Source: a virus
Virus record (IMG/VR): IMGVR_UViG_3300035179_000017
Coordinates: 1 to 46,811 of that record
Length of the DNA stretch: 46,811 nucleotides
Strand: one strand, 5' to 3'
Every line of letters starts with the position of its first letter. Within the stretch, counting starts at the first letter, position 1. The notes under the pieces were generated by a model. That model was given only the letters and a program-made list of their open reading frames with translations. It searched no databases and was not told the origin of the DNA. This document shows positions 1,786 to 43,723 of the stretch, one piece after another. The translations under genes were made by a program, and so were the position numbers.

Positions 1786-2249
1786 AAAATAATTGCCGAA
1801 AATGTGGTATTGTTCTGACTGACGAGAATACTAAAAAGTACCGTTTGAAGAAAAAAGATTATGTTTGTAATGATTGTGGTAGAATAGAACATAAGATTTC
1901 TCGAAGGAAATGTTATAAAAACCCAGAAAAACGCAGAAAGTTTGAAGAAACAACTTTAAAGTGGAGAGTGTCCCATCCAGATAAAGTGAAGGCAACATCA
2001 CGAAGAATGGTGTGTAAGAGGAGGGGCATTTCCGTGAAAGAATTTGATAGTCTGTATCTAAAACAAAAAGGGTGTTGTGCCATTTGTAAGAAACACAGTT
2101 CTCAATTAAAACGTACCCTCAATATAGACCACGACCATAAAACTGGTAGGATTAGAGGATTGTTGTGTAATCCATGTAATCTTAGGTTAGGTACTTTAGA
2201 GGATGAAAACTTTCGTAAAGCAGTAGAAAATTACTTGGGAGACTTATAA
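1782..2249 (+). CDS. Endonuclease VII-like HNH nuclease
   Basis: The 155-residue protein has an N-terminal zinc ribbon (C5, C8, C29, C32) and a basic middle. The C-terminal domain has CAIC at 99-102, the catalytic-type IDHDH near 115-119 and a closing CNPC at 129-132, followed by a run near NLRLGTLEDE. This is the recombination endonuclease VII pattern, in which a zinc-bound beta-beta-alpha-metal nuclease cuts branched DNA. It overlaps both neighbours by one to four bases. Inside a run of structural genes it may act as a packaging resolvase or as a homing-type free-standing nuclease. The domain call is firm; the role is inferred. Confidence 0.88.
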   Translation: MKNNCRKCGIVLTDENTKKYRLKKKDYVCNDCGRIEHKISRRKCYKNPEKRRKFEETTLKWRVSHPDKVKATSRRMVCKRRGISVKEFDSLYLKQKGCCAICKKHSSQLKRTLNIDHDHKTGRIRGLLCNPCNLRLGTLEDENFRKAVENYLGDL

Positions 2250-3748
2250 TGTCAGAACCTACACTTAGTGCCTCGTTCCAAGAACTTATCACGAAAGTGG
2301 CCAGGGAGGCTGGGATTGCATATTACTCCTCTTCGGGTCAATCTAAAGCACTTTGTCCTATAGATGTCCACGACCTCGAATTGGTTAAGGAAATAATCAA
2401 CGATGGTATCAGGATGTTTATGGCTGATGAACCCCCGACCGGATGGCGGTGGAGACGTAGACTTGCTTCGATTGCAGTTACAGGAACACGTATAACTGGA
2501 ACGGCGGATTCCGCGAGTGCTACAACTATCGTGGACTTAACCCTTGCGACTACATACAACTATCTTCACTATGTGGGGACTTGTACTGTTTCGGAATTTT
2601 CAGTGGGAGAAACAGTTGTTCAGGGTACTTCTAATGCTACAGGTTTAATAACAGCGATTACTGCGACCACATTAGATATTACCATTGTAAGTGGTACTGC
2701 GGATAAAACCCATAATTGGACTCATGGGGCACACACCTTTACTACCTCATCTGCTGTGTTTCCTCTAGAAGGTTATTACATTTATATAACAGATGGAACA
2801 GGTGAAGGCAGTTATGCAGTTATAACAGGATACAATGCCTTAACTGGGGCAATTACTGTTGCCGATTGGCTAACTCAGTACGGAAATGCAGGTGGCACAG
2901 ACCCAGTTACACTTAGTACCTTTGCAATTACTCCAATAGAAACTGTTGGTGGAAATATAAGCCGTTATCCGCTCCCCGAATATTTTAATGGAGAAATAGA
3001 CGGTAAAATAGAATATGCCGAGGATTCTAATATATCCAGTCCGATTGATTGGAGAGATGAATCTTTTATCCGGTCCAGACGTGCGATTTCTGCGGAAACA
3101 GGTTATCCACGATATGCCGCGATTAGACAATTAGAACCGTTGGCCGGTGGAACACTCGGACCGAAACGAAGATTGGAGTTAATCTTAGACCCGTCTCCAT
3201 CGGCAGATGTTACATTGGAATTTCCTTATACTGTTACTTTTAATAAATTAGATGCGGAGACAGGAGAGGCAGATACTAGCGGGACTCCTGATACTACTCT
3301 TGTAGATGCGACAAGAACCGAAGGAGATACCTATTTTGTAGGGTGGAAGATAACTATAATCGATGGTACTGGAAAAGGAAGTTATGGTATAGTTACTGTT
3401 TACACGGGTTCTTCAGGGACATTTACTGTTGCTGATTGGCTCACGTCTGCGGGTGCAGGCGGGGGCACGAACCCAGGAGCGAATAGCGTTTATTATGTAG
3501 AACCATTAAATAATTTACACCCGTGTGGACACAGATTTGACGAAGTAATAATTGCTGCATGTATGTCTAAGGCACAACAGAGAATTGAAGAAATGGCGAC
3601 CTCTAATTACGTAGAGGAATATCATAAAAAGGCGTTGATGCAAGCCTATAAAATTGATTCCAGATTTGCACCAAGAACTTTGGGAAGTATGAATAAAAGA
3701 AGAATAGTTTCTAGAATAAGAAATAGTAATTACGTAGAATTTAATTAG
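2249..3748 (+). CDS. Head-tail adaptor / neck-type structural protein with inserted beta domains
   Basis: The protein has 499 residues. The ends (about 1-75 and 420-499) are helical and resemble a phage adaptor: a helix followed by PPTGWRWRRRL near 62-72, and a C-terminal helix with HRFDEVIIAACMSKAQQRI. Between them lie beta-rich inserts that include a duplicated module: residues about 175-216 (TDGTGEGSY ... VADWLTQYGNAGGTDP) and 365-409 (IDGTGKGSY ... VADWLTSAGAGGGTNP). A VGETVVQGTSNATG segment near 119-132 recurs in the tail protein at 5537-7285. The ATG overlaps the stop of the nuclease gene by one base, and the stop is TAG. The adaptor role is inferred from order and fold impression. Confidence 0.6.
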   Translation: MSEPTLSASFQELITKVAREAGIAYYSSSGQSKALCPIDVHDLELVKEIINDGIRMFMADEPPTGWRWRRRLASIAVTGTRITGTADSASATTIVDLTLATTYNYLHYVGTCTVSEFSVGETVVQGTSNATGLITAITATTLDITIVSGTADKTHNWTHGAHTFTTSSAVFPLEGYYIYITDGTGEGSYAVITGYNALTGAITVADWLTQYGNAGGTDPVTLSTFAITPIETVGGNISRYPLPEYFNGEIDGKIEYAEDSNISSPIDWRDESFIRSRRAISAETGYPRYAAIRQLEPLAGGTLGPKRRLELILDPSPSADVTLEFPYTVTFNKLDAETGEADTSGTPDTTLVDATRTEGDTYFVGWKITIIDGTGKGSYGIVTVYTGSSGTFTVADWLTSAGAGGGTNPGANSVYYVEPLNNLHPCGHRFDEVIIAACMSKAQQRIEEMATSNYVEEYHKKALMQAYKIDSRFAPRTLGSMNKRRIVSRIRNSNYVEFN

Positions 3749-3758
3749 GAGAAATAAA

Positions 3759-4019
3759 ATGTCCGAGTTTAATATTGCTCACACGCTAGCAAATATGGTT
3801 GCTGCTCCTGCGGGAACGGCCACACCAAAGGTTATTTTTAAGACTGAGGATGGAGTATTGTTCTGTTATGGTACTGCTGCTGTAAATGTGGCTCCTTTGA
3901 CAACTGCTAGTATATACGCACCAGGTTGTGTATATATTAAAATAGTAGCGGCTGGAACTTCAGTCCTTTATCTCAACACTGGTACTTTCGCATCACCTAG
4001 TTGGACCGACCAGAAATAA
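3759..4019 (+). CDS. Small decoration/fibre-like virion protein
   Basis: The 86-residue product starts 11 bases after the previous gene behind an AGGAGA site. It is neutral, rich in Ala, Thr and Val, with alternating beta pattern and the C-terminus YLNTGTFASPSWTDQK, a style of ending common in small phage head or tail decoration proteins. There is no cysteine pair, signal or catalytic motif. The structural role is inferred from composition and position. Confidence 0.55.
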   Translation: MSEFNIAHTLANMVAAPAGTATPKVIFKTEDGVLFCYGTAAVNVAPLTTASIYAPGCVYIKIVAAGTSVLYLNTGTFASPSWTDQK

Positions 4020-4034
4020 TTAAAGGAGTACAAT

Positions 4035-4265
4035 ATGGAATTGTATTTTCCCGTACTGGGTTTATACGAGGGAACTCCCGTAGAAAAACAACCCATTAGA
4101 ACCTCTCCGCATCTACAAAACGTCAGACCTACTGACGTAAGTGATGAGAGGATACGGGGAGGTCAACGCCCAGGATTGGTAAAGGCTTATGATACTCAGA
4201 TTGGCGGGGACCACCCTGTACTGGTCATGGTACAAATTGCAACTACATATATAACACCGGAATAA
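4035..4265 (+). CDS. Tail nozzle/tube protein, N-terminal piece (split gene, part 1)
   Basis: The 76-residue product starts at ATG 4035 behind AAAGGAG. The segment FPVLGLYEGTPVEKQPIRTS ... RIRGGQRPGLVKAYDTQIGG is the kind of N-terminus seen in long phage tail-tube or nozzle proteins, far shorter here than a full protein. It ends at TAA 4263-4265. The next codon but one is ATG 4269 in the same frame, so suppression of this stop would join it directly to the next piece. It is the first of five pieces covering 4035-7285. Confidence 0.6.
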   Translation: MELYFPVLGLYEGTPVEKQPIRTSPHLQNVRPTDVSDERIRGGQRPGLVKAYDTQIGGDHPVLVMVQIATTYITPE

Positions 4266-4268
4266 TGT

Positions 4269-4439
4269 ATGGTTTGGCCTGAAACACGACCTATTGCGTA
4301 TGACCCCGAATTATTCTGGGACGAGGATGCAGGTACTTGGACTGGTGTTGATGCCGGTGGCAGCAGATATAAAATGCAGGTTGTGGTTGTCGGACAAAAC
4401 GATATTGGTGAAGGTGTGATTTATTTTGGTGCGATATAA
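4269..4439 (+). CDS. Tail protein piece (split gene, part 2)
   Basis: A 56-residue frame starts at ATG 4269, in the same frame as the previous piece and one codon after its stop. No good ribosome site precedes it. It contains YDPELFWDEDAG, GGSRYK, VVVVGQ and ends VIYFGAI. These features match the end of the piece at 5186-5536 (YDPDDTW ... GGGRYK ... VVVGHN ... LYFGDL), so the two are diverged copies of one module. The stop overlaps the next ATG (TAATG), which shifts frame by -1. Confidence 0.6.
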   Translation: MVWPETRPIAYDPELFWDEDAGTWTGVDAGGSRYKMQVVVVGQNDIGEGVIYFGAI

Positions 4440-5185
4440 TGTACTTAAATAACATAGTGGTAAATCTTACTTACAATGGTGAACAACAATTAAACACTAC
4501 AGTTCCTGTTTCTAAATGGTGGCAACTATACTATCCTAACTTTGCGTATGAACACAATTTCGCCTGGTTTGTTTGGACTGATTTGTGGTGGGTATATTAT
4601 GGCGTTTTAGATAATACTTGGGAACAAACTGTTGAGGTGATTCTCTATAAAAAAATTGAAGGAAACTGGGTTTTCATAGAAGATATATATGTGGATTTGG
4701 AGTATCCCTTACCAAGTTCCTTTGAGAGTGGGGGTTATCTAATTGAGTTTACAGGTCTCCCTACAAGTTCCCCAACCTTTTTTATATCAGATATACAACC
4801 ACTGACTCTTTTAATTAAATGTTATGGAGAAACGGTATATGATGGGATTGCTGCTTCCCGATATTGGGATGGAATTGACGATATTGTTCTCGAAAATTGG
4901 ACTTGGCATGACGGCGGCAATTATCCTTGGGGAGGTGCGACTTTTATTTATTCTCCTTTAAGTGATAGTTGGGAGTTCTGGAGTTATTTTGGTTATCAAG
5001 AAGGAAATGGGAATCCTGCTCCTTCTTTACATCTCGAATTTAACGATGGTGCGATTACGGTTGATTTTGGGAATTTAATAACTTCCTATCCACGATTAAC
5101 ACCCTCTAAAGCCTCAAACCCTACACCTACTGATGGTGCTGTTGATGTTCCCAAAAACATTACTCTTTTTACTTGGGAAATTTAG
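4439..5185 (+). CDS. Tail protein piece with start of an Ig-like domain (split gene, part 3)
   Basis: The 248-residue product has an ATG overlapping the previous stop by one base and no ribosome site. It is very rich in Trp, Tyr and Phe with beta character. The last ~25 residues (NPTPTDGAVDVPKNITLFTW) are the first strands of a Fn3/Ig-like domain of the type 'P.dGa.dV...l.W'. The rest of that domain is encoded after the stop, in the piece at 5186. The stop is TAG 5183-5185, directly followed by ATG in the same frame. No name is known for the main domain. Confidence 0.6.
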   Translation: MYLNNIVVNLTYNGEQQLNTTVPVSKWWQLYYPNFAYEHNFAWFVWTDLWWVYYGVLDNTWEQTVEVILYKKIEGNWVFIEDIYVDLEYPLPSSFESGGYLIEFTGLPTSSPTFFISDIQPLTLLIKCYGETVYDGIAASRYWDGIDDIVLENWTWHDGGNYPWGGATFIYSPLSDSWEFWSYFGYQEGNGNPAPSLHLEFNDGAITVDFGNLITSYPRLTPSKASNPTPTDGAVDVPKNITLFTWEI

Positions 5186-5536
5186 ATGATATTGTCAAAA
5201 GTATATTTTAATGGAATTTACCGGGGATATACAGAAGGTACGCAAATTGGTGTAAGTAACTGGAGTTTGCGATATTATAAATTATATAATTGGAGAATTG
5301 ATACCTACGACACTGAGACTGAACTAACTACAACGGGTGATACATGGGTTTTTACTACAAAAAAATCTCCTAGTAGTTTTGATAATCCTCGTCCAGATGA
5401 TTATGACCCCGATGATACTTGGAAATACGAAGATGGAGATTACGAATGGTCTGACCTTGCAGTTGCCGGTGGTGGAAGATATAAGAATAGAATTGTGGTT
5501 GTAGGACACAACTGTCTCTACTTTGGAGACCTTTAA
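5186..5536 (+). CDS. Tail protein piece, rest of Ig-like domain plus duplicated end module (split gene, part 4)
   Basis: The 116-residue product starts at the ATG directly after TAG, in the same frame as the preceding piece. The first ~60 residues (KVYFNGIYRG, YYKLYNWRIDTYD, TGDTWVFTT) complete the Ig-like domain begun upstream. Residues about 66-116 repeat the module of 4269-4439. A GGGA eight bases before ATG is only a weak ribosome site. The stop TAA (5534-5536) is directly followed by the next ATG, again in frame. Confidence 0.6.
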   Translation: MILSKVYFNGIYRGYTEGTQIGVSNWSLRYYKLYNWRIDTYDTETELTTTGDTWVFTTKKSPSSFDNPRPDDYDPDDTWKYEDGDYEWSDLAVAGGGRYKNRIVVVGHNCLYFGDL

Positions 5537-7285
5537 ATGGCCTCACTTACATTATTAGAAAGTTCGCATGGATTTATTGCCGGTGATTTGGATACCAGCG
5601 GGTATGTGGCAGTAACTCCAGCATATCAAAAAATTTATTTCGCAGATGGTCGTACCCCAGATAATAAAGGATTTCATAAACTAGATTTTATAAATACTAA
5701 AATAACAAAACAGGCGACTGTTGCTTTTATTAAAGGAGAGGTTGTTACCCAAACGGGTGGTGCAAAAGGAATTTATGATGAATGTCTTGATGTGAAACTT
5801 ACTGGGAGTTTAACTGGAACTTTTGTTGTGGGGGAATTAGTTACACAGGCCGTTTCAGGAGCTTCTGGATTCGTGGCATATATTGGTTCTGGTTACATAA
5901 ATGTTTATCCCATCGGAAAAGATGAAGATGGACAACCGATTGCATTTGTAACCTCTCAATTAATAACAGGTACTCCAAGTGGTGCTACTACAACTCCATC
6001 GGCAGTATCAAGTTCAGGTGAAGGAATGTTTCATTTTATTTATAGAACCACGACAGTTGAATTTGACACTACTAACACTATAACAGGGTCCGATAGTGGG
6101 GCTACTTTAACTTCTACATTAGTGGTTACTGCACCTCCGCATTGGCTCCCCTGGGTTTTAACTGTGGGAAAATTTCCTGATGGCGGTTCTAATATAATGG
6201 CCCTATGTTTTGGCCGGATATTTATGAACTCCATAAGTAATCCTCATCATTGGCTTGCTACTAGGGCTGGAGACCCGTTAGATATGGAAATGTCCCAGGA
6301 TGACGTGGGTACTGCCGTATCTAGTCAGACCTCAAAGGCAGGATTGGTGGGAGACCAACTTGTTGCATTGGTACCTTATAAGGACAACTATTTAATTTTT
6401 GGTTGTCTTAATGAAATGTGGGTATTACGTTCTGACCCAGTCGCAGGAGGAGTCCTTACTAATATATCTAAAGAAACAGGAGTTTTCAGTAATACTGCGT
6501 GGTGTTGGGACGATAAAAATAACTTGTATTTTGTGGGGATGGATGGAATATATGTGCTAAATTCGGAGGCCATTATAAATGCCTCTTCTCCTACTAATTT
6601 GACTAAAGAGAGAATACCTAAATTAGTATCTTCATTGGCCCTGAATAGACGGACAGATAGAATTACTATGGCCTATGATAAAGAACGATACGGTTTAAAC
6701 GCAACCATATCACAACAGGACGGGGCGTGGTCTGTTTCATTTTTTGTGAATTTAAGACCAATAAATGTCGGTGGAGTTGAAATTACCGGCGGAGTATTCC
6801 CAGAAGTATATCAGACAGAACACATACCTGCTTCTATGTCATTTTTTAATAGTAGGACAAAGGAACAACGTGGTTTATTGTTTGGTTGTTACGATGGTTA
6901 TATAAGGAAATTTGACGACACTGAAATGTCGGATGATGGTGATAACGCCATTAATAGTTTTGTTACGATAGGTCCGATTTCTAACAGTGAAAAAGGCAAG
7001 TCATCGGTTAAGGTGTCGGATATTTCTGTGGTTCCGGGTGTAGATACTGATAGTATCACCCTGGAAGTATTTTCTGGAGATTCATCGGAGGAATTGATAG
7101 ATAAGATTATGAACGAAGAGAATCCTACAGTTTCCAAGGTACTCACCGGAGATAAATCCTTACCATCTTTGAGGAATAAAGTAATAGGTAGTGCTATAGG
7201 GATTAAATTAAGCAATAATAATGTTGATGAAACCTGGAATATAGAAAAGATAAACGCTGAAATAAATATACTCGGAGGTAAATAA
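5537..7285 (+). CDS. Tail nozzle/tube protein, main C-terminal piece (split gene, part 5)
   Basis: The 582-residue product has a GGAG site nine bases before ATG, which lies directly after the previous stop and in the same frame. The N-terminal third has repeated short beta units of the form GE-V-TQ ... GA-G. The rest is propeller-like, with LVPYKDNYLIFGCLNEMWVL, VFSNTAWCWDDKNNLYFVGM and DGIYVLN, typical of the large tube/nozzle proteins of short-tailed phages. It is probably the body of the nozzle that the four preceding pieces complete. Family placement is by sequence style and order. Confidence 0.7.
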   Translation: MASLTLLESSHGFIAGDLDTSGYVAVTPAYQKIYFADGRTPDNKGFHKLDFINTKITKQATVAFIKGEVVTQTGGAKGIYDECLDVKLTGSLTGTFVVGELVTQAVSGASGFVAYIGSGYINVYPIGKDEDGQPIAFVTSQLITGTPSGATTTPSAVSSSGEGMFHFIYRTTTVEFDTTNTITGSDSGATLTSTLVVTAPPHWLPWVLTVGKFPDGGSNIMALCFGRIFMNSISNPHHWLATRAGDPLDMEMSQDDVGTAVSSQTSKAGLVGDQLVALVPYKDNYLIFGCLNEMWVLRSDPVAGGVLTNISKETGVFSNTAWCWDDKNNLYFVGMDGIYVLNSEAIINASSPTNLTKERIPKLVSSLALNRRTDRITMAYDKERYGLNATISQQDGAWSVSFFVNLRPINVGGVEITGGVFPEVYQTEHIPASMSFFNSRTKEQRGLLFGCYDGYIRKFDDTEMSDDGDNAINSFVTIGPISNSEKGKSSVKVSDISVVPGVDTDSITLEVFSGDSSEELIDKIMNEENPTVSKVLTGDKSLPSLRNKVIGSAIGIKLSNNNVDETWNIEKINAEINILGGK

Positions 7286-7286
7286 C

Positions 7287-8075
7287 ATGGCCATTAAAAC
7301 TCCGCCAAAAGAAAAAACTAGTTTAGAAGAATACCAGACAGCAATATCACACTTGAATAAATTGGTCAAAATGTATGCTCCTGGTGGAACTTATGGGGCG
7401 GGTCAATATGCTACCATAGAATCAGAGGCAAAAAAAGCCAAAGCTGAATCTCTTGCCGGTTTGGTGGCTTCTGGAATGAGTAGTGGTACAACTGCGGCAG
7501 GATTAAGGGCCAGATTAGGAAAAGACATTTCTACGGCTAAATTGGGCGTGGAAGACGTTAGAACCGGAAAGTATGGAGAGGCTCTGACAGGATTGGCCGG
7601 ACTTAGGGCCGCACTTGCTGAACGTAAAGCACTAACAGAAGAAAGAGAATCAGAAGAATTTTATAGAATATCTGCTGAGAATAGGGCGAGTACCGCCGCT
7701 AATATAGCTGAATCAAATGCTAGACTTTACAAAGGAACTGCCTGGGACCCGAATAGAACCCCTGTTGTTAGTGGTGGTGGCGGAACTACGACAGGTGGTG
7801 AAACTACGATAGGTGGTGGTGGTGGTAAAGGTGGAATTGGTGGAATTGGCGGACAAGATTATGTTTACTCCCTTGGTGGTGAAGGAGAACATTTTGCCGA
7901 CCCCACTCTTGGTTTATCACCATTAACCCCAATGACAGAGGCAGAAATGGGTAAATTTGGGATTACATCTACTCCTGGTTATTCAGATGTCTATAAAGGA
8001 ATAGTAAATGAAGCAACAGGAGGTTATTTAGGTGGTTTGAAAACTGCGGCGAAAAAATATCCTTTTAATTTATAA
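7287..8075 (+). CDS. Probable internal virion (ejection) protein, Gly-rich tail
   Basis: The 262-residue product has a GGAGG site before ATG 7287. Residues about 1-155 are alanine-rich amphipathic helix (likely coiled coil). Residues about 160-190 are a flexible Gly/Thr linker (SGGGGTTTGGETTIGGGGG), and a short folded end follows. Helix-rich proteins in this position, after the nozzle and before large internal proteins, are usually ejected with the DNA in podovirus-like phages. That role is inferred. Confidence 0.5.
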   Translation: MAIKTPPKEKTSLEEYQTAISHLNKLVKMYAPGGTYGAGQYATIESEAKKAKAESLAGLVASGMSSGTTAAGLRARLGKDISTAKLGVEDVRTGKYGEALTGLAGLRAALAERKALTEERESEEFYRISAENRASTAANIAESNARLYKGTAWDPNRTPVVSGGGGTTTGGETTIGGGGGKGGIGGIGGQDYVYSLGGEGEHFADPTLGLSPLTPMTEAEMGKFGITSTPGYSDVYKGIVNEATGGYLGGLKTAAKKYPFNL

Positions 8076-8084
8076 GAAATAATT

Positions 8085-9548
8085 ATGCCTATAGGTCCAA
8101 ACTACACTCTGATACCAAATGACTGGATTGGTCTGGAAATTATATTTAACGACTTAGTATCCAGGTTTGTAAATAGTAATATTAGTACACAAGAATTAAC
8201 GGAATTATCCCACGACCAAATACACGGTCTTGTTGGTTCAAACCACACGGTTTCTGGACTGACCACTGGACATGTCTTAAAGGCATTGAGTGCCACTACT
8301 TTTGGATTTGCTGCGGCAGGATTTGTGGAAAATGAATCTGACCCGGTTTATTCCTCTTGGTATAATTCTGGAAATCCCACACTTACAGGATTAACCTTAA
8401 CTGGATTTTCTGGTGTATTAAAAGCAACTGCCGGAGTAATTTCTACAATAACAGATAATTCTGCAAATTGGAATACGGCTTATTCCCATTCTCAAATAGT
8501 AACAGGGAATCCCCACAGTCTTGATTATACAGATATAGGGTTATCGGCGAATCAGGTTATAGATTGGACTGCGAATACCGCCAATAATTTTCTTATTTCT
8601 GGCACTCTTGGGGCAGGTGCAATAACAGGAACGTCTTTTATAATCGGTGCAAATACTCTCGATACTACCGAATGGGCGTTACTTGACGGTGTTACGGCAA
8701 ACAAACTTATTGATTGGACTGCGGCAAGTTCGGCTTTCAGCACTTCTTCGACAGGTCATTTCGGAGGGGCATTAGATACGGGCAGTAATTTGACTATTGA
8801 TGGAACAGTTGGGATAGGAGTTACGCCATCACCTACAAGAGCAATATATATAGGTTCGTCTTTTTCATCTACAAGTATTGTGCAAGGTGTGGCCGGTATA
8901 GTTACACAAACAAGAACAGGTATCGCTCCTGGTAGTACTGTGGGATTAAATTTTCAGGCTTTTTGGACTCCATCTGGACTAATGGGTGGCAATAGAACAA
9001 TGGCATTATTTGCGGGGGCAATAGCGGGTTGTACTGCAACTTCATATATTAACGAAATAAATAATATGACCATTACAAAAATGGTCGGGTTTTCTACATT
9101 TAGTGGTTCTACTTCATTTCTTTGTTTGGCAAAAGGGTCTGGAGCAACTGGAACGGTAACGGCGACCAATGTTTATCACTTTGAAGCAAGTGATGTTAAT
9201 GTTTCCAATGATGGCGTGGCAACAACACAAACGGCCTTTTACACTCCTGCAATGACAGCAGCAACAACTAACTGGGGTTTGGGAATAAATACCCAAAGTT
9301 ATATAAACGGAAATTTAAGACTCGGTTCTACTGTTGCCCCGACTTGTGCTTTATCATTTGCCGATGCCAAGGATATAAATTTTGGTTCTACAACGGGGAC
9401 TAAAATAGGAAGTACCTCAACTGAAAAACTTGCTTTCTGGGGTAAAACTCCCGTAGTTCAACTCGCAAAAGCAAGTTATAATAACTGGGCGGCTTTAGGC
9501 GATGTTGTGAACGCCTTAGTTGCTCTCGGACTGTTTGATACAGCATAA
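8085..9548 (+). CDS. Tail fibre / receptor-binding protein
   Basis: The 487-residue product is low in charge and rich in Ser, Thr, Gly and Asn, with repeated short beta units typical of trimeric fibres. The N-terminal part has LSHDQIHGLVGSNHTVSGL and two echoes of an (A)N-x-(V/L)IDWTA unit. The C-terminus has KIGSTSTEKLAFWGKTPVVQ followed by a helical NNWAALGDVVNALVALGLF, a common ending in phage fibres and spikes. No enzymatic depolymerase motif is visible. It is likely to decide host range. Confidence 0.75.
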   Translation: MPIGPNYTLIPNDWIGLEIIFNDLVSRFVNSNISTQELTELSHDQIHGLVGSNHTVSGLTTGHVLKALSATTFGFAAAGFVENESDPVYSSWYNSGNPTLTGLTLTGFSGVLKATAGVISTITDNSANWNTAYSHSQIVTGNPHSLDYTDIGLSANQVIDWTANTANNFLISGTLGAGAITGTSFIIGANTLDTTEWALLDGVTANKLIDWTAASSAFSTSSTGHFGGALDTGSNLTIDGTVGIGVTPSPTRAIYIGSSFSSTSIVQGVAGIVTQTRTGIAPGSTVGLNFQAFWTPSGLMGGNRTMALFAGAIAGCTATSYINEINNMTITKMVGFSTFSGSTSFLCLAKGSGATGTVTATNVYHFEASDVNVSNDGVATTQTAFYTPAMTAATTNWGLGINTQSYINGNLRLGSTVAPTCALSFADAKDINFGSTTGTKIGSTSTEKLAFWGKTPVVQLAKASYNNWAALGDVVNALVALGLFDTA

Positions 9549-18476: not shown

Positions 18477-18614
18477 GAATTTCTTAATCTTCCACCACCA
18501 CAGTCGGGTGGCTCTATATTTTAATCTCCCCCACCAGGAAAATATTATAAATTCATACCAATCACCTTCATTATGCCGACTACTTTCGTTGTGTTTAGAT
18601 TTTATTTTATCCAC
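18453..18614 (-). CDS. Short protein sharing the primase C-terminal end
   Basis: A 53-residue frame with a likely GTG start at 18614, overlapping the end of the primase-helicase gene. It has an acidic start and a Trp/Lys/Arg-rich second half (GRLKYRATRLWWWKIKKFF) that could bind membrane or nucleic acid. It ends KEYIGG, the same six residues that end the primase. It lies between the two 25-bp repeats, so it looks like an insert whose boundary copied the primase end. Start choice is uncertain. Confidence 0.4.
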   Translation of the reverse strand: MDKIKSKHNESSRHNEGDWYEFIIFSWWGRLKYRATRLWWWKIKKFFKEYIGG

Positions 18615-18630
18615 CGATATATTCCTTAAA
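18606..18630. repeat. 25-bp direct repeat, copy 2
   Basis: The primase-side copy of the repeat at 18452-18476. It holds the last codons of the primase-helicase gene and the GTG of the next frame. Confidence 0.8.
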
Positions 18631-20892
18631 TGCTTCACCTGTAATTCTAATACCTTCAAATACATATATCCTGTTATTACCCATTCGTTTACGTGTGGTA
18701 ATTATTTGTGGACAAGTAGCCAAAAACCAACGGCAAAACGATTCCTTAAATCCGTGTTGCCTTCCCTGATTTACACACCATGCTTTCCAAATATCAAATA
18801 ATTGGTCTTTGGGAACATAAAACTTTTCTTTATCATACACCCCTTCTGGAAATTCGCAACAATCGTTTACGAATGAAATCACCGGAGACGCAATTTCCCG
18901 AAATTGTTGTAAGGCAATTTCAGAACTCTCAGGCATTATAAAATCCTTTTTCTCACGCAAATCTTTAAGACCGCGTAGTGCAAAATTAATAATTTTTCCA
19001 TCGGCAGCTTCTTTACGAAGCCTACGTTTAAGGGTTCTGTCTTCTTTTCCTATGTAAGAATTTTCAAATGTTATGATATTTAATCTGGGTTCCAACGCTC
19101 TTGAATGGTCTGTAAATGCGGGCAAATCATTCATGGCGATTGTAAATCTACATTTTAGGTGAACATTAGGTAATTCTTTAAGTCCTTTTCTATTAACACT
19201 TACCGCATCTCCACCTGTAATGTGGAGTATTTTTTCCAGTACCGCGTTGGCATCACCTGTTTTCGGAGATTTTGCATCTCCTATCAGGACTGCGAGTTTT
19301 CCGAGGAGAGGTTGATAACCAAATGAATTAGTAAGTGATTGAAAAGAAGACTCACAACATTGACGTTCTCCCAATGTAGCCTGAAGAGTTTCAAGCACGG
19401 TACTTTTTCCTGAACGAGGTCTTCCTGTAAATAACATGAGTTTTTCAAAAGACATGTCGGGTATACAGTTATATCCAAACCATTGTGAGAGTAAAAGGAT
19501 TTTTGTTTTATCTCCATTATATATGTCCTCCAGAAAGTTGTCCCAAACACTACTTTCGGTATTTTCATCGAAGTTATACGGTAAGGCATCAAACGTAAAT
19601 AACTCCGGGGTTGGATTATATAACCTGATTTTTCCTTCTATGTATTCATTTACATTGAGCATCCCGTTTTTAAATATAATCAAATCCACAGGGTCAGGTC
19701 TTTCGGTTTTAGACAACCACACAGGAGGGTCATCTACTATCGGACACCATTTACTTAGGGCATCAATTATATCATTAACTTTCGCTCTTGTGGGTTTATA
19801 TGGTTCTACTGCGACACCATTCCTTGTTTCTTTATAAAATTTCTTCCCGGATAAGAAATTATAAAGTTGCCCCCGAAATACATCAGTATCTAAATTATCG
19901 TAACATTGCTTGTTCCATTCTGTCCACTGTCCTTTATAGTTTCGTATTGTTACACAACTGTTTTTAGTTTTCTCCCTATGTATCCACACTTCTGCAATCG
20001 TAGAAGCGACATCATCTTCAAAAATATCGGGATTACTGGATGAGTCTCCTTGTTTTAATATGTATTCCAACAATTCATTAGTTGTAAGTCCGTTCTTATT
20101 TTTCCAAATTCTTAAATCTTTTATACCATCAGGCGGGAGTAATTTTATAACCGATTTACATACTACTTTTAATATTTTAAATGCGGATTCCATTCCTCGT
20201 ATACCGGCACCGGAATCATTTTCTCCAATAATTACTACATCGTATCCTTCAAGAAGTTTTCGTAGTAATACCTTTCCTCCTCCCGCATTTGAACTACCAA
20301 CCGCCGTAAAACCAAGGTCCGTAGCAACGGCAACATCAGAAGCACCTTCAACAACCAGGACCGGATTCTCAGATGGTATGAGTAATGTTTTTTGACTTTT
20401 GCTATAATTCGTTTCCGGTTTAAGGATATGTAAATATCCCAATTCGAGTTGTTTAACACTTCCTTGAGGTATATGTACACAAACAATGGCTCCTGGAGAT
20501 TCTGGATGAACAACTGGTAAGAGGCACCCATCGGACTTTCCACAAAGCGGACATGGGTTTTCTTTTGACACCCTAATCCAATTTTCTTTTCCTGGCTTGT
20601 ATCGTTCATAAGTTTGCCCCTGATTTACTATATAGATTAGGCCCCGTTTGGAACCTGAATCTTTTAACATAAATTTTTTGCCGTCTTGGTATCGTTCCAT
20701 CAAACCAATTATATTCCCTGATGAATCCCGTTCTGGAAAAATCCAGGATTGATGGCCGGGATAAAATCCCACTTCCAGTAAGTTTAGGGATTCTGTGGAG
20801 ACCCCCAAATCATCCGAAAGGATATTTAAAATGTTGGGGAATCTGAGAATATTGTTTCTAAATTTATTTAGAAGACCTTGTAGGTCGGTCAT
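18607..20892 (-). CDS. Primase-helicase (TOPRIM plus SF3 helicase, D5-like)
   Basis: The 761-residue product has several domains. A zinc-binding part has CPLC (114-117) and further Cys/His near 123-140. A TOPRIM domain has PVLVVEGASD near 177-186 and IIGENDSG near 221-228. A linker domain follows, then a superfamily 3 helicase with Walker A GRPRSGKST near 490-498, an acidic LIGDAKSP segment and a KCRFTIAMNDLPAF sensor region. This is the single-protein primase and replicative helicase used by many phages and plasmids. A hairpin with a T-run lies just before its ribosome site. Domain assignment is firm. Confidence 0.92.
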   Translation of the reverse strand: MTDLQGLLNKFRNNILRFPNILNILSDDLGVSTESLNLLEVGFYPGHQSWIFPERDSSGNIIGLMERYQDGKKFMLKDSGSKRGLIYIVNQGQTYERYKPGKENWIRVSKENPCPLCGKSDGCLLPVVHPESPGAIVCVHIPQGSVKQLELGYLHILKPETNYSKSQKTLLIPSENPVLVVEGASDVAVATDLGFTAVGSSNAGGGKVLLRKLLEGYDVVIIGENDSGAGIRGMESAFKILKVVCKSVIKLLPPDGIKDLRIWKNKNGLTTNELLEYILKQGDSSSNPDIFEDDVASTIAEVWIHREKTKNSCVTIRNYKGQWTEWNKQCYDNLDTDVFRGQLYNFLSGKKFYKETRNGVAVEPYKPTRAKVNDIIDALSKWCPIVDDPPVWLSKTERPDPVDLIIFKNGMLNVNEYIEGKIRLYNPTPELFTFDALPYNFDENTESSVWDNFLEDIYNGDKTKILLLSQWFGYNCIPDMSFEKLMLFTGRPRSGKSTVLETLQATLGERQCCESSFQSLTNSFGYQPLLGKLAVLIGDAKSPKTGDANAVLEKILHITGGDAVSVNRKGLKELPNVHLKCRFTIAMNDLPAFTDHSRALEPRLNIITFENSYIGKEDRTLKRRLRKEAADGKIINFALRGLKDLREKKDFIMPESSEIALQQFREIASPVISFVNDCCEFPEGVYDKEKFYVPKDQLFDIWKAWCVNQGRQHGFKESFCRWFLATCPQIITTRKRMGNNRIYVFEGIRITGEAFKEYIGG

Positions 20893-25616: not shown

Positions 25617-25873
25617 TTGTGAATAAAATTCCTGCAACAAAAATTAGTGTGGGTTTGAAAATTTAATAACCATTCACTTACACATATTACTACATTTGCG
25701 TCCAACGGGGCAATATCGACATTTTCTTTACAATATTTAGAATTACCACTGCCTCCATCGTGTATTTTTATCCCCGAACAATACCCAAAATTTCTGTGTG
25801 GTATGTCTTGATTTTCATTAGTGGGTTTACGATTCCAAAACTTACATACACTACATTTACTTTTTATAGGCAT
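25613..25873 (-). CDS. Cysteine-rich zinc-binding-type protein
   Basis: The 86-residue product begins MPIKSKCSVCKFWNRK. It has further cysteines near 32, 48, 64 and 79-80, suggesting one or two zinc sites. Its ribosome site and start lie within the end of the DNA polymerase gene (17-base overlap), in the repeat described at 25867-25909. No family recognised. Confidence 0.6.
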   Translation of the reverse strand: MPIKSKCSVCKFWNRKPTNENQDIPHRNFGYCSGIKIHDGGSGNSKYCKENVDIAPLDANVVICVSEWLLNFQTHTNFCCRNFIHK

Positions 25874-27881
25874 CTGATATTACTCCTTCCGCAGCCAATG
25901 GCAAACCTTTTGCCCAATCGGGACCATGACACATTATACTATGCGCCATACTTAAAAACCAGGGGTTAAATTCGGTATCGGGAATTATAGAAACTATCTC
26001 ATCGTGGGTGTGTAATACAACTGGAAGTCTTCGTTTCTCAAATTCTAAAATCCAGTATCCCAATAAATCTCTAGCAATCGCCTGTACTATATTTTCGGTA
26101 ATAGAACCGCCCCAAAGATTGCCCCAATGCCAGCGAATACTTCCTTCGTTATCTATTCTACAATGACGGTAATAAAGTACACGACCTGATGGAAGTTGTA
26201 GATTAACAATTCCGTTGTAATTAGTAAAACTAAGTAATATATCCTCGGCAAAAACGTCTTTAATAACTTCTAATTTAGTAGTTAAACAGATAGTTTCGTG
26301 TGGAAATTTTATGACCTGTTTAAAACATTTTTCAACCAACGACCAAAATTCCGGTATCCTCGAATAAGTAATCCTATAGGTTTTAATAAGATTGTCAATA
26401 AAATTAAAGTCATACTCACCAGAATCAAATAAAGGCCGAAGGTCATTATTTTGACGACATCTTTCATAGAATTTTTTACCCCCCATACCGTAGCCGCATC
26501 CAAGAATCGCATCTTTTCCAAATCCTCGTCTGATAGTGAATTTCTTTCTATCGGTATCATTATCAGTCTCCAGGGATTTTCTGACTTCAGTACCAAATAG
26601 TAATGTGGCAAATTCTGAATAAATATCCTTTTCATTTTTAAACCCACTTAATAAATCCTCCTGTCCGGCCAACCATGCCAGGATTCTGGCTTCTATTTGG
26701 GCCGAATCTATTATAATAAATTTGTAGTTATCGGGAGCCAGTAATAACTCCCGCACTTTTGATATAAGTTCGTGTGTACCTCGTCCAGTACGTCCAGTAG
26801 CTCCAAAATTCTGGGGGTTAATCTTTTCCGTTCCTCCCCAACGTCCTGTGTGTCCGCCGTAATAATTCAATGGAATACGAAGATAACCTCCACTGGCAGT
26901 TGCTTGTTTTACCAGGTTTTCTATTCGCCTGATGTGGAGCGGCCATGATTTAACGGCTTGTCTGGCTTTAACCAGTGTTCTGACGGTTTCATCAGGATGA
27001 TTTAGTAAATACCGCAACCCCTCGTCATCTTTTGCAAGAGCAAGGATATTACCTTTTTTCCCAGGTTTAGTCGGGGGTATTTCACCTATTGGTAGTATGT
27101 TATATAATATCTCTTCGAATGATTTATTACCACGTAATGCCTCTTCGGTATAACCGGATTTCTTAATGGAGTGCATCATGGCGAGATTCATTTCTGCCTG
27201 TAATTCGTTAGCCTTTGTTTCATCAAATTTTATCCTGGGATTCAAATATAAATCTAATGTGTGTCTTGCCAGTTTTAATTCTATTTCTGGGTTTGTCAAT
27301 AATGGTAATAGGATTTTGAATAATTCCCATTCTATTTCTAAATCAGTTGCAGAGTAATCGGTAAGATTCTGTCGTTGTTCCACAGTCATAGTATCCCAAT
27401 GTAAACCAGAAAATTGTTTGGTATCTTCTTTTGCTTTTAAATGATACATTTTTGCCAAGTCTTCTAACTTGTGGGACATTCGAGCATCGTAATGTTTGGA
27501 TAAATCCTTTATGTCTATAATATATTTTGGTACTATCCCGAATTTTTCCTTTAAGATAGTAATGTCAAAGAAGGCGTTTTGTACGATAACTGTTGTCCCT
27601 GCTAAATCCCCTTCACCGTAGATTGTCTCTATATCCCCAAGAGTTTTACTGGTCAAAAATTTTGGCCCCCAAAATTTTGTATCACTGAAAGTTCCCGAAC
27701 CAAATTCTATCCTGGTACCCAATCCTAACAATTCAAACCGTTTATCCGTTATATATTCTATAGTGGATAGGGATTTTTTATCCCTACCCAAATGATAATC
27801 ACTATCAAAATAAGACTCGAAATCCAGGACCAGGACATCAGGAGGATACCCAACGGATTTTAATATTTCCTGCCAGGTCAT
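25857..27881 (-). CDS. Family A DNA polymerase with 3'-5' exonuclease
   Basis: The 674-residue product has a DEDD exonuclease at the N-terminus: LDFES (D20, E22), QNAFFD (D106) and YSATD (Y176, D180). The polymerase domain follows, with motif A IIIDSAQIEARI (D392), motif B RRGFGKDAILGCGYGMG (about 451-467) and motif C LHTHDEIV. No 5' nuclease domain is present, as usual for phage enzymes. It is the replicative polymerase, acting with the primase-helicase at 18607-20892. ATG 27881 overlaps the preceding gene by four bases. Confidence 0.96.
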   Translation of the reverse strand: MTWQEILKSVGYPPDVLVLDFESYFDSDYHLGRDKKSLSTIEYITDKRFELLGLGTRIEFGSGTFSDTKFWGPKFLTSKTLGDIETIYGEGDLAGTTVIVQNAFFDITILKEKFGIVPKYIIDIKDLSKHYDARMSHKLEDLAKMYHLKAKEDTKQFSGLHWDTMTVEQRQNLTDYSATDLEIEWELFKILLPLLTNPEIELKLARHTLDLYLNPRIKFDETKANELQAEMNLAMMHSIKKSGYTEEALRGNKSFEEILYNILPIGEIPPTKPGKKGNILALAKDDEGLRYLLNHPDETVRTLVKARQAVKSWPLHIRRIENLVKQATASGGYLRIPLNYYGGHTGRWGGTEKINPQNFGATGRTGRGTHELISKVRELLLAPDNYKFIIIDSAQIEARILAWLAGQEDLLSGFKNEKDIYSEFATLLFGTEVRKSLETDNDTDRKKFTIRRGFGKDAILGCGYGMGGKKFYERCRQNNDLRPLFDSGEYDFNFIDNLIKTYRITYSRIPEFWSLVEKCFKQVIKFPHETICLTTKLEVIKDVFAEDILLSFTNYNGIVNLQLPSGRVLYYRHCRIDNEGSIRWHWGNLWGGSITENIVQAIARDLLGYWILEFEKRRLPVVLHTHDEIVSIIPDTEFNPWFLSMAHSIMCHGPDWAKGLPLAAEGVISDAYKK
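25867..25909. repeat. 43-bp junction repeat, copy 2
   Basis: The authentic copy inside the 3' end of the polymerase gene. The other copy is 532 bases away, with two small genes between. Confidence 0.9.
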
Positions 27882-40000: not shown

Positions 40001-41909
40001 TATATTACGTCCTACCTTACGGACCCCGTTCCCCGGTGAATCCAGGTTTTGGAAATGTCCCAAGACTGGGTTAATAGTTCCGAAATCTGTACAGGAAAAT
40101 ATCGAATGGCGTACAAAACTTTTAAGAAGGGCCGAGAACGACCCCATCTTCCAAAGGGATTTAATGTCTGCCTGTAAAGTTTCGCAGTTATTCTGGATTA
40201 ATACTTTTGCCTGGACCTACAGACAATTTGAAACCAATTTGGAAACAGGAGAACGTCAGGATTGTATACACCCACATGTACCATTTGTAACATGGGAAAT
40301 ACAGAATGAATTACAGGAATTGTTTGAATGGTGTCTTAAAAATGCCAAGGATATTCTTATAGATAAATCCCGTGATATGGGGGCAAGTTGGTGTTGCATT
40401 GCCTTTATCCATTGGTTGTGGTTATTTAGGCCAGAATCTCAGATGTTAGAAATGTCCAGAACCGTAGAATATGTAGACTGGCCTGGAAATATGAAGGCAT
40501 TATTCCAGAAACACGATTATATAAATGGATGGTTACCGGATTGGATGCGACCTGATGAATGTCTCCCTGAAGAAAGATTTAGGACCAAGAAACATTTGAA
40601 GAATATGCATAACAATAGTTGTATTGATGGAGAATCTACTACCCAATATGCCGCTAAAGGTGATAGACGTTTGGTAGGATTATTGGATGAATTTGCAGCT
40701 TGCGAAGAAGGCGAGGCTATGGACACGGCCACACGTGATGCCTGTCTGATAAGAATTATTAATTCCACTGTAGGTGGTCCGGGAACTGCATACAGTAGAA
40801 TTAAAAATTCTGGTAAGACTAAAGTATTTATTATGCCGTTTCACGAACACCCAGAAAAAGGAAATGGTAGGTATGTAAAAGAAACTGAACAGGGAAAGTT
40901 TGAAATACGTTCTCCCTGGTTTGATGTGGAAGAAAAAATACGTTCCCCCAAACAAATTGCCACAGAAATTTTAAGGCAAGATATTCAATCTGGAGATGTG
41001 TTTTTTACCACCCACAATATTGATAAACATGTTGCCTTATTTGCTAGAGACCCGATTAGTACGTGGAATATAAATTTAAAATCCAGTATTGCCAAGGATG
41101 CGATTGGGGATATAGTCAGACGCAAAGATTATTCTTCAGTAGTCATTACTAAATGTTCTACTGGACCATTGCGAGTCTGGACCAACCTTATTATGAATAG
41201 ACCCGACCAATCTAAAAGTTATATATTTGGAATTGATTTGGGCAAAGGTCAGGGGGCATCTAATTCTGTAGTGTCTATAAAATGTAAAGAGACAGGAGAA
41301 AAGATAGCAGAATGGAAGAGTGCGGTTGTTCCGCCTTATGAAATGGCCTATTTGGTAATGGCACTCTCAATTTGGTGCGGAGGTAGGAAACCACACGGTC
41401 TTCCATTTTTGAAGTGGGAAATGAATGGTCCCGGATGGGATTTTGGTCGGATAGTCGTAAAACAATTCAGGTATCCGTATTATTATAGAAATGTGGTTCC
41501 GGGAAAAATAGTTGACGAGAAATCAGAAAGTTACGGTTGGCATAGTGGAAAACAGAGTAAGTATGAATTACTGGCATTATATGATAGAATGTTGGCTATA
41601 GGCGGATATATAAATCATTCCAAAGAAGGTTTGGAAGAAGCAAAGATATATATTTATTTTACAGATGGTGGAATAGGTCCGGCCTATTTAATTGAGGAAA
41701 ATATATCGGCCAGAAAAACACATGGAGATATAGTTATTGCCGATGCTTTGACATTGGATAATTCTGATATACCTCGCGGAAGAATCGTGGACAATGATAT
41801 AATACCGGAAAATTCTGCGGGATACAGATTACAACAGATGATAAATAAGAAAAACAGGAAACAAAAATCATGGCGTAGACCCTATGATTTTACCAGGAGT
41901 GTAAATTAA
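39984..41909 (+). CDS. terL: Terminase large subunit
   Basis: The 641-residue product has an ATPase domain with a variant Walker A near 128-135 (KSRDMGAS), Walker B GLLDE near 232-236 and a coupling motif after it. The C-terminal RNase H-like nuclease has FGIDLGKGQ (D418), an acidic strand LKWEMNG, and GDIVIADAL (D582, D587). It cuts concatemers and drives DNA into the shell through the portal, which is encoded next and overlaps by one base. The assignment is firm. Confidence 0.95.
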   Translation: MILANDILRPTLRTPFPGESRFWKCPKTGLIVPKSVQENIEWRTKLLRRAENDPIFQRDLMSACKVSQLFWINTFAWTYRQFETNLETGERQDCIHPHVPFVTWEIQNELQELFEWCLKNAKDILIDKSRDMGASWCCIAFIHWLWLFRPESQMLEMSRTVEYVDWPGNMKALFQKHDYINGWLPDWMRPDECLPEERFRTKKHLKNMHNNSCIDGESTTQYAAKGDRRLVGLLDEFAACEEGEAMDTATRDACLIRIINSTVGGPGTAYSRIKNSGKTKVFIMPFHEHPEKGNGRYVKETEQGKFEIRSPWFDVEEKIRSPKQIATEILRQDIQSGDVFFTTHNIDKHVALFARDPISTWNINLKSSIAKDAIGDIVRRKDYSSVVITKCSTGPLRVWTNLIMNRPDQSKSYIFGIDLGKGQGASNSVVSIKCKETGEKIAEWKSAVVPPYEMAYLVMALSIWCGGRKPHGLPFLKWEMNGPGWDFGRIVVKQFRYPYYYRNVVPGKIVDEKSESYGWHSGKQSKYELLALYDRMLAIGGYINHSKEGLEEAKIYIYFTDGGIGPAYLIEENISARKTHGDIVIADALTLDNSDIPRGRIVDNDIIPENSAGYRLQQMINKKNRKQKSWRRPYDFTRSVN

Positions 41910-43723
41910 TGAACGATTTAATAACTCCATCTAAAGTATCAAGCGTAGTAAAACAGGGTTATGAACGCATTGCCCACTATCGGGCCGCAACTGCCATGTT
42001 TATAAAAGAATATGTAGGTGCTTATTATAGAAATGAATATGGTTCGACTGGAGAAGAACCATTAAACCTCATGTTCCACAATATTAGGACTATGGTTCCC
42101 AATCTGGTGATGCAGAACCCGATAAATAAGGTTACAACCCCCATACTCCCACATAGACAATATGCGGAATTATTGGGTTTGGGATTAAATTTCATAGATG
42201 AACAGTTACGATTAAAAAGAATTATACGTGCATGGGTTACTAATGCTTTATTCGGATGGGGAATACTAAAGATTGGTCTGGCGGCAAAAGGACAGATGAT
42301 ACAGTTCGGGGATATTAATATAGACCCTGGTATGTTATATTGTTCTATAATTGGACTGGATGATTTTGTAATCGACCCTATTTGTAAAGTTATTGAGGAG
42401 TCTGTTTTTCAGGGACATAGGACGATGGTTCCCCGGCAGATTTTACTCGATATTGATGGATATGACCATGATGTTGTGGTTAATTTACCGGCATCTTCTA
42501 CGGCAGTAAGAGAAGATAGAATTTCGGATATAACTAAGAAATATATCGGTGTGCAAGAAATGTTGAACATGCAGGACTATGTGGATGTAGTTGAATTGTG
42601 GATGCCGGAGATAGACGCAATAATTACTATACCCGACCCGTATCAAACCACTATAGATAAATATGTTGGTATAATGGATTATGAAGGACCGAAAGAAGGT
42701 CCTTATGTTCATCTATCTTTTACTCCGCCTGTACCTGGAAATCCATTCCCTGTGGCCCCGGTAAGTATTTGGTTTGATTTACATAGAATGGCAAACAGGA
42801 TATTATCGAAAATAATGGACCAGGCCGACAGACAAAAAGATGTGTTAATGTATAATCCTGCCCAGTCAGATGAAGCACAAGAGGTAATAGACGCTGAAGA
42901 TGGTGATACTGTTGCTTCTACTGACCCTAAAGGAATTGCGGTAGTCTCTTTCGGTGGTCAGGATAGAAACAATGAACAGATGCTTCAACAGTTACAAATA
43001 TGGTATAATTATATGTCGGGTAATCCCGATTTGATTAGTGGAGGAATGAGTCCCGGAGTTAAAGGAACCGCCGAAACTGCTACTCGTTCTCAAATATTAC
43101 AGGCAAACGCGGGTATAACTATAGAAGATGCCCGACAGATTCTATACGACCAAACGGCTGAGGTAAATAAGAAATTTGCGTGGTACTTACATACAGACCC
43201 ATTTATGGAACAACCCCTCCCTAAACGAATAAGTGGTAGTGAATATCAACAGGTGATTTTAACACCCGAACAACGTCAGGGAGATTTTCTTGAATATACC
43301 TTTGATATAGTTGCGAGGTCGATGTCGAAAGTTGACCCGATGGTAAGGTTAAGAAACATCAGGGAATTTTGTATAAATGTGTTGCCATCTGCCGTTAATG
43401 CAACTATGCAAATGACACAGATTGGTCGTCCGTTTAATCTGGAAGGATATTTAACTACTGTTGCAGAAGAAATGGGAATAGGAGACTGGATGAACGGAAT
43501 GTTCCAGGACCCGGAGTTTATGAATAGGATACAATTAATGATGGCAATGGGTCCACAGAACGCGGGTAAAGGTAGTCCGAGTTCGCAGAATACTACGGCA
43601 GGAGTGATTCAGAATAAAGGATTTCCAGGAAAAAGAACCGTGATGAGTCCTGAACAGGAATTTAATACTGCTTCTCAAGAAACTGCTGGCGAGGCACAAG
43701 GTCAGAATGAAGGGGCTTACTAA
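41909..43723 (+). CDS. Portal protein
   Basis: The 604-residue product directly follows the terminase (TAATG overlap). It shows portal features: an N-terminal helical wing, a core with VAPVSIWFDLHRMANRILSK and DQADRQKDVLMYNPAQSDEA, a GDTVASTDPKGIAVVSFGG segment, and the stem/clip helix region beginning GVKGTAETATRSQILQANAG. The C-terminal ~70 residues are Met/Gln/Gly-rich. It forms the ring through which DNA enters and leaves. Confident by order and length. Confidence 0.88.
   Translation: MNDLITPSKVSSVVKQGYERIAHYRAATAMFIKEYVGAYYRNEYGSTGEEPLNLMFHNIRTMVPNLVMQNPINKVTTPILPHRQYAELLGLGLNFIDEQLRLKRIIRAWVTNALFGWGILKIGLAAKGQMIQFGDINIDPGMLYCSIIGLDDFVIDPICKVIEESVFQGHRTMVPRQILLDIDGYDHDVVVNLPASSTAVREDRISDITKKYIGVQEMLNMQDYVDVVELWMPEIDAIITIPDPYQTTIDKYVGIMDYEGPKEGPYVHLSFTPPVPGNPFPVAPVSIWFDLHRMANRILSKIMDQADRQKDVLMYNPAQSDEAQEVIDAEDGDTVASTDPKGIAVVSFGGQDRNNEQMLQQLQIWYNYMSGNPDLISGGMSPGVKGTAETATRSQILQANAGITIEDARQILYDQTAEVNKKFAWYLHTDPFMEQPLPKRISGSEYQQVILTPEQRQGDFLEYTFDIVARSMSKVDPMVRLRNIREFCINVLPSAVNATMQMTQIGRPFNLEGYLTTVAEEMGIGDWMNGMFQDPEFMNRIQLMMAMGPQNAGKGSPSSQNTTAGVIQNKGFPGKRTVMSPEQEFNTASQETAGEAQGQNEGAY

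Follow-up and report, generated by a model that had tools for sequence, protein, structure and literature searches.

Probable fission of a podophage-type tail nozzle gene around variable adhesin-like genes in a lineage of uncultivated viruses

Five closely spaced ORFs lie between positions 4035 and 7285 of the window, the whole stretch of 46,811 nucleotides that was analyzed (IMG/VR virus record IMGVR_UViG_3300035179_000017). An earlier interpretation of the bare letters (hereafter the sequence-only reading) had described them as a tail protein split into five frames, and its coordinates for these frames were exact to the base. The pieces and the signals between them are as follows.

4035..4265, + strand: piece 1, 76 aa, the putative nozzle N-terminal arm, with an RGGQRPG motif and the C-terminus TTYITPE before the stop
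4269..4439, + strand: piece 2, 56 aa, nearly all a plug-like tail module that matches the module HMM, ending in GSRYKMQVVVVGQNDIGEGVIYFGAI before the stop
4439..5185, + strand: piece 3, a variable insert of 248 aa with a TAATG start, whose C-terminus, NPTPTDGAVDVPKNITLFTWEI before the stop, corresponds to the first FN3-like strands
5183..5188, + strand: TAG-ATG junction within the FN3-like domain
5186..5536, + strand: piece 4, 116 aa, the remainder of the FN3-like domain and the tail module, ending in GGGRYKNRIVVVGHNCLYFGDL before the stop
5519..5528, + strand: SD-like GGAG embedded in the coding sequence of the terminal YFGD motif, with a spacing of 8 nt to the ATG at 5537
5537..7285, + strand: piece 5, 582 aa, the predicted nozzle body, consisting of a β-propeller and the C-terminal platform part

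The gaps between successive pieces are +3, −1, 0, and 0 nt. The TAA of piece 1 (4263–4265) is separated by TGT from the ATG at 4269, and the frame from 4266 stays open until the TAA at 4437–4439, which overlaps the ATG at 4439–4441 (TAATG). From 4439 to 7285, the frame is broken solely by TAG (5183–5185) and TAA (5534–5536), each with an ATG directly after it; the probability of two stops being placed in this way by chance was approximately 2e-4 on the basis of codon frequency. Stop-to-start spacings of −4 to +3 nt were found in 31 of the 66 same-strand neighbor pairs of the window genome. Tight junctions are thus normal here, indicating that the pattern marks gene boundaries and nothing special to translation. 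The unusual point, judging by sequence comparison, is that these boundaries cut a protein that more distant relatives make as a single chain. Good ribosome sites precede only the first and last pieces, as had been noticed before (AAGGAG with a spacing of 6 at 4035, and the GGAG upstream of 5537); the site at 5186 is weak, and none is clear before 4269 or 4439. In the relatives, an anti-SD match of at least 4 nt precedes 90% of the starts of the arm; the corresponding figures are 59% for the body and 25% for the second FN3 half, compared with 19% for internal ATGs.

None of the five pieces gave a convincing Pfam or PHROG match, and no relative of the pieces was found among 50,697 phage records; the nozzle identity was taken from the fold and from single-chain relatives. 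The relatives came from IMG/VR, together with one contig binned as Lokiarchaeota. An AlphaFold2 model of the body based on 22 sequences had a pLDDT of 68, and its best PDB matches in Foldseek were the nozzles of SU10, Pa223, VP1, T7, E1004, and Kp9. Modeling the body with piece 4 gave stronger PDB matches (E = 7e-14 for SU10), and the nozzles of LME-1 and GP4 joined the list. The TM-scores against known nozzles were low (approximately 0.3–0.4) despite the strong E-values, which makes this a match of fold type, not of detail. With nozzles as all of its top PDB matches, piece 5 is predicted to have the podophage nozzle fold of the platform and β-propeller type. In hhalign-type profile comparisons, the arm matched the N-terminus of single-chain nozzles (E = 2.5e-23), and the body matched both the B-type proteins described below (E = 9.8e-95) and the single-chain homologues (E = 8.8e-52), which in other contigs carry the arm and then the body in the same order. 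An SU10-type portal is encoded at 41909–43723, and the source is a short-tailed virus without a close cultured relative. The window also encodes a family A DNA polymerase (25857–27881) and a DUF5906/D5-like ATPase (18607–20892). The tail-nozzle identity given by the sequence-only reading was borne out by the predicted fold of the body and by the single-chain homologues. Its assignment of all five pieces to the tail protein held for piece 1, piece 5, and the end of piece 4 (with a copy in piece 2), but not for pieces 2 and 3 or the FN3 portion of piece 4, which belong to variable inserted genes.

At least 24 window-type contigs, every one in which this region is visible, carry the same two cuts at homologous residues. 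One of these (L031; JAHPYZ010000033.1) is a virus contig in a Lokiarchaeota bin; its host may be archaeal, or the bin may be contaminated. Wherever a window-type contig includes the upstream region, the arm has its own ORF of approximately 76 to 96 aa ending in a sequence close to TTYIxP, and the body begins with its own ATG, usually as M(A/P)xLTxL. Nine more contigs (B-type) were compared by their body-bearing ORF; in these too the arm is separate, but the body and an upstream β-sandwich or similar domain mostly form one chain; in L067, the body begins just before the propeller-entry strand. The arm and body form a single chain in L069, L071, L072, L073, and L075, and the second cut sits inside a stretch that aligns uninterrupted in two-piece and single-chain nozzles. 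In a tree of the body, the window-type and the two-piece (B-type) rows each fell on one side of a fully supported branch, with the single-chain rows outside; the root is a midpoint root, and the order of events is thus suggested rather than fixed by this tree. The dN/dS values were 0.13 for the arm, 0.08 for the body, 0.25 for the second FN3 half, 0.18 for the module, and 0.53 for the first FN3 half, indicating that all the pieces tested are under purifying selection.

The interval from arm to body in the relatives is 1 to 3 kb long, and its content varies by virus. The inserted genes include fibre, β-sandwich, and FN3-like adhesin domains as well as small basic ORFs. In L009, L012, and L024, an endonuclease VII gene (Endonuclease_7) is placed precisely at the cuts, and the window's own cuts lack one. 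A GP4-type fibre (PF23140) is among the inserted genes of L005, and ORFs similar to this Gp80-like ORF were found in L003, L013, and L018. Homologues of piece 2 in the relatives are stand-alone or domain-tail ORFs. When piece 3 was searched as a whole, no relatives were found, and only its FN3 start is shared with other loci. Upstream in the window, an endonuclease VII (PF02945, E = 1.2e-19) of the same family as the genes at the relatives' cuts is encoded at 1782–2249, with a TAATG overlap with a 499-aa ORF (2249–3748). The start Met inside the FN3-like domain occupied the same alignment column in 10 of 10 loci aligned and recurs in L080/L081; the junction is TAG-ATG in the window and TAATG, TGATG, or ATGA, in another frame, at other loci. 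The domain is broken in 12 loci and continuous elsewhere (L005, L006, L012, L020, and L021), and this character requires six to seven changes on the body tree, in agreement with an exchange of cassettes. The module is common to L012 and L022, whose bodies are close relatives, but the sequences upstream of the module differ.

Of 22 loci searched with the last ~50 residues of piece 4 as a profile, 19 had exactly two module-ending ORFs and two had three; L029 had one, and its second copy ends just beyond the range that was counted. The profile matched none of the 294 reverse-strand controls. The module-ending ORFs share the terminal motif VVVGxxxIYFG, and this part aligns with the strand leading into the propeller of B-type nozzles. 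Against B-type and single-chain proteins, the module profile gave weak matches at the propeller-entry strand (E = 0.001 to 0.08). Residues 1–52 of the body had block-mean pLDDT values of 32–40 when the body was modeled alone and 81–89 when piece 4 was attached (stop read as Q), with pTM rising from 0.48 to 0.64; this comparison is confounded by nine B-type rows that the second alignment also had, and the better order of the body N-terminus with the module attached is suggestive only. A mixed alignment of cassettes and body misplaced the cassette rows and was left out of folding. In SU10, the chain enters blade 1 from the N-terminal platform part, and T7 has an equivalent arrangement with the same velcro closure of blade 1 (PMC9509320, PMC6702177). 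We tentatively propose, with some doubt, that the shared C-terminal hairpin (GGRYKxxLVVVGxxxIYFG), carried on usually two exchangeable adhesin genes per virus, is a donated strand in blade 1 and that the break in the nozzle is a standard socket. In the B-type loci L067 and L058, the module occurs on cassette ORFs while the body retains its own copy of the strand, and the module may therefore dock elsewhere.

The explanation that we consider well supported and probable is that a podophage nozzle gene underwent fission, with variable adhesin-like genes at the cut, and that the pieces are translated separately and reassembled in the virion. It starts from features established in the sequences themselves, namely, conserved separate ORFs, homology to single chains, variable inserted genes, and purifying selection. 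A split gene was among the options raised by the sequence-only reading, and it fits both the cuts conserved in relatives and the single-chain homologues. The 76-aa arm and the 582-aa body (propeller and platform) would each have a gene of its own, and the stretch between them would be a gene-insertion site. The pieces with weak ribosome sites may be translated by termination-reinitiation at TAATG, TAGATG, or ATGA junctions, and the separate chains would reassemble in the nozzle hexamer. The second cut would fall just past the first propeller strands, with those strands encoded at the ends of the inserted genes. The inserted protein would then probably complete the propeller and thereby be anchored to the tail, a speculative step and the least certain one.

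Extended or nested nozzle chains made by programmed stop read-through or frameshifting would agree with the two downstream stops of the window, both of which are in frame, and with L080/L081, where the body likewise is in frame directly after a stop. In other relatives, however, whole unrelated ORFs (endonuclease VII, fibre, and small basic ORFs) separate the corresponding pieces or the next piece lies in another frame, and with unrelated genes between arm and body, neither process can rejoin the nozzle. Upstream frameshifting could not rejoin the FN3 halves in L023 and L080, where stops close the downstream frame at the ATG or immediately 5′ of it. The main stop is TAA (29 of 39), no suppressor tRNA or other tRNA gene was found in the window, and no strong structure was found 3′ of the stops (z = −1.75 and −0.75). 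We regard such chains, which the sequence-only reading had suggested, as very improbable; the same cuts persist where unrelated genes, extra ORFs, or another frame come after the stop. An alternative code or suppressor was also rejected in view of the TAA usage and the zero tRNA genes, and an intron or ribozyme was rejected with no Rfam match within 3700–7400. It is hardly credible that the gene is decaying or that the stops arose from mistakes in sequencing or assembly: the record is metagenome-assembled and single-chain homologues exist, but the cuts recur at identical alignment columns in two dozen independent contigs, and the pieces are under purifying selection. Error or recent mutation, which the sequence-only reading had named as its possible refutation, is itself contradicted because unbroken frames occur only in distant relatives and nearer ones keep the cuts.

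It is also conceivable that no split ever took place and that the pieces are the usual independent genes of a tail, coding for a small nozzle-associated protein, fibres, and a nozzle, with the shared tail acting only as a docking tag. The normality of tight junctions in the window genome and the tail-bearing ORFs of L067 and L058, where the body retains its own strand, would suit this arrangement. We consider it unlikely because the arm and body form a single chain in five contigs, the body alone lacks confident first ~50 residues, and the cut falls within a stretch that aligns uninterrupted in two-piece and single-chain nozzles. A separate proposal concerns only the origin of the fission and is compatible with it: invasion of the cut sites by HNH/endonuclease VII genes, comparable to mobE in Aeh1 nrdA. 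The position of Endonuclease_7 exactly at three loci's cuts and the T4-type precedent (PMC2988022) speak for it, but the gene is absent at most loci, including the window's cuts, and late arrival at a pre-existing boundary is equally possible; we consider this origin possible but rather doubtful.

The nozzles T7 gp12 and SU10 gp17 resemble the one described here in predicted fold and in the order of platform arm, propeller, and C-terminal platform, and the portal of the window genome is also of the SU10 type. By contrast, the known nozzles of this kind are single chains, as in most phages, whereas here, as in all window-type relatives, the arm and body are separate ORFs with other genes between them. 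By analogy, the nearest precedent of a split nozzle is the genes-in-pieces phenomenon of T4-like phages, which includes Aeh1 NrdA split by mobE, T4 gene 60/mobA, and phage 25 gene 43A/43B (PMC2988022). These cases are similar in that a conserved gene is divided into parts that are translated separately, some cuts carry HNH-type endonuclease genes, and the coupling is of the TAATG type, but they are enzymes, whereas the protein split here is structural and part of the virion, the genes at its cut are adhesin-like, and a terminal module is repeated. Two marks of a gene in pieces, an uninterrupted homologue (L069, L071–L073, and L075) and selection on the pieces, were found here. The fiber I protein gp80 of podophage GP4 (PF23140) has its counterpart in the Gp80-like ORF of L005, but not in the window. 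No earlier report of a split nozzle was found in the literature searched, which covered few subscription journals. Across an entire lineage of uncultivated viruses, a central virion structural protein would be kept stably in pieces, and adhesin-like genes would be exchanged at the cut. Should the propeller truly be completed by the tail module, tail adhesins could be changed through a natural plug-and-socket, and host-recognition modules could be swapped as whole genes with the nozzle body untouched. For annotators, the 76-aa and 56-aa ORFs beside a nozzle body would be tail parts, not junk.

Two further observations concern the nozzle body. In L060, a 616-aa tailspike-like ORF (6862–8712) lies inside the body, and the C-terminal domain is a separate 188-aa ORF (8712–9278), which is apparently a third cut site. 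In the window, residues ~64–160 of the body form an insertion that apparently duplicates the GEVVTQ..GA motif (FIKGEVVTQTGGAKGIYDE / FVVGELVTQAVSGASGFV); this insertion is common to L030 and absent from most relatives.
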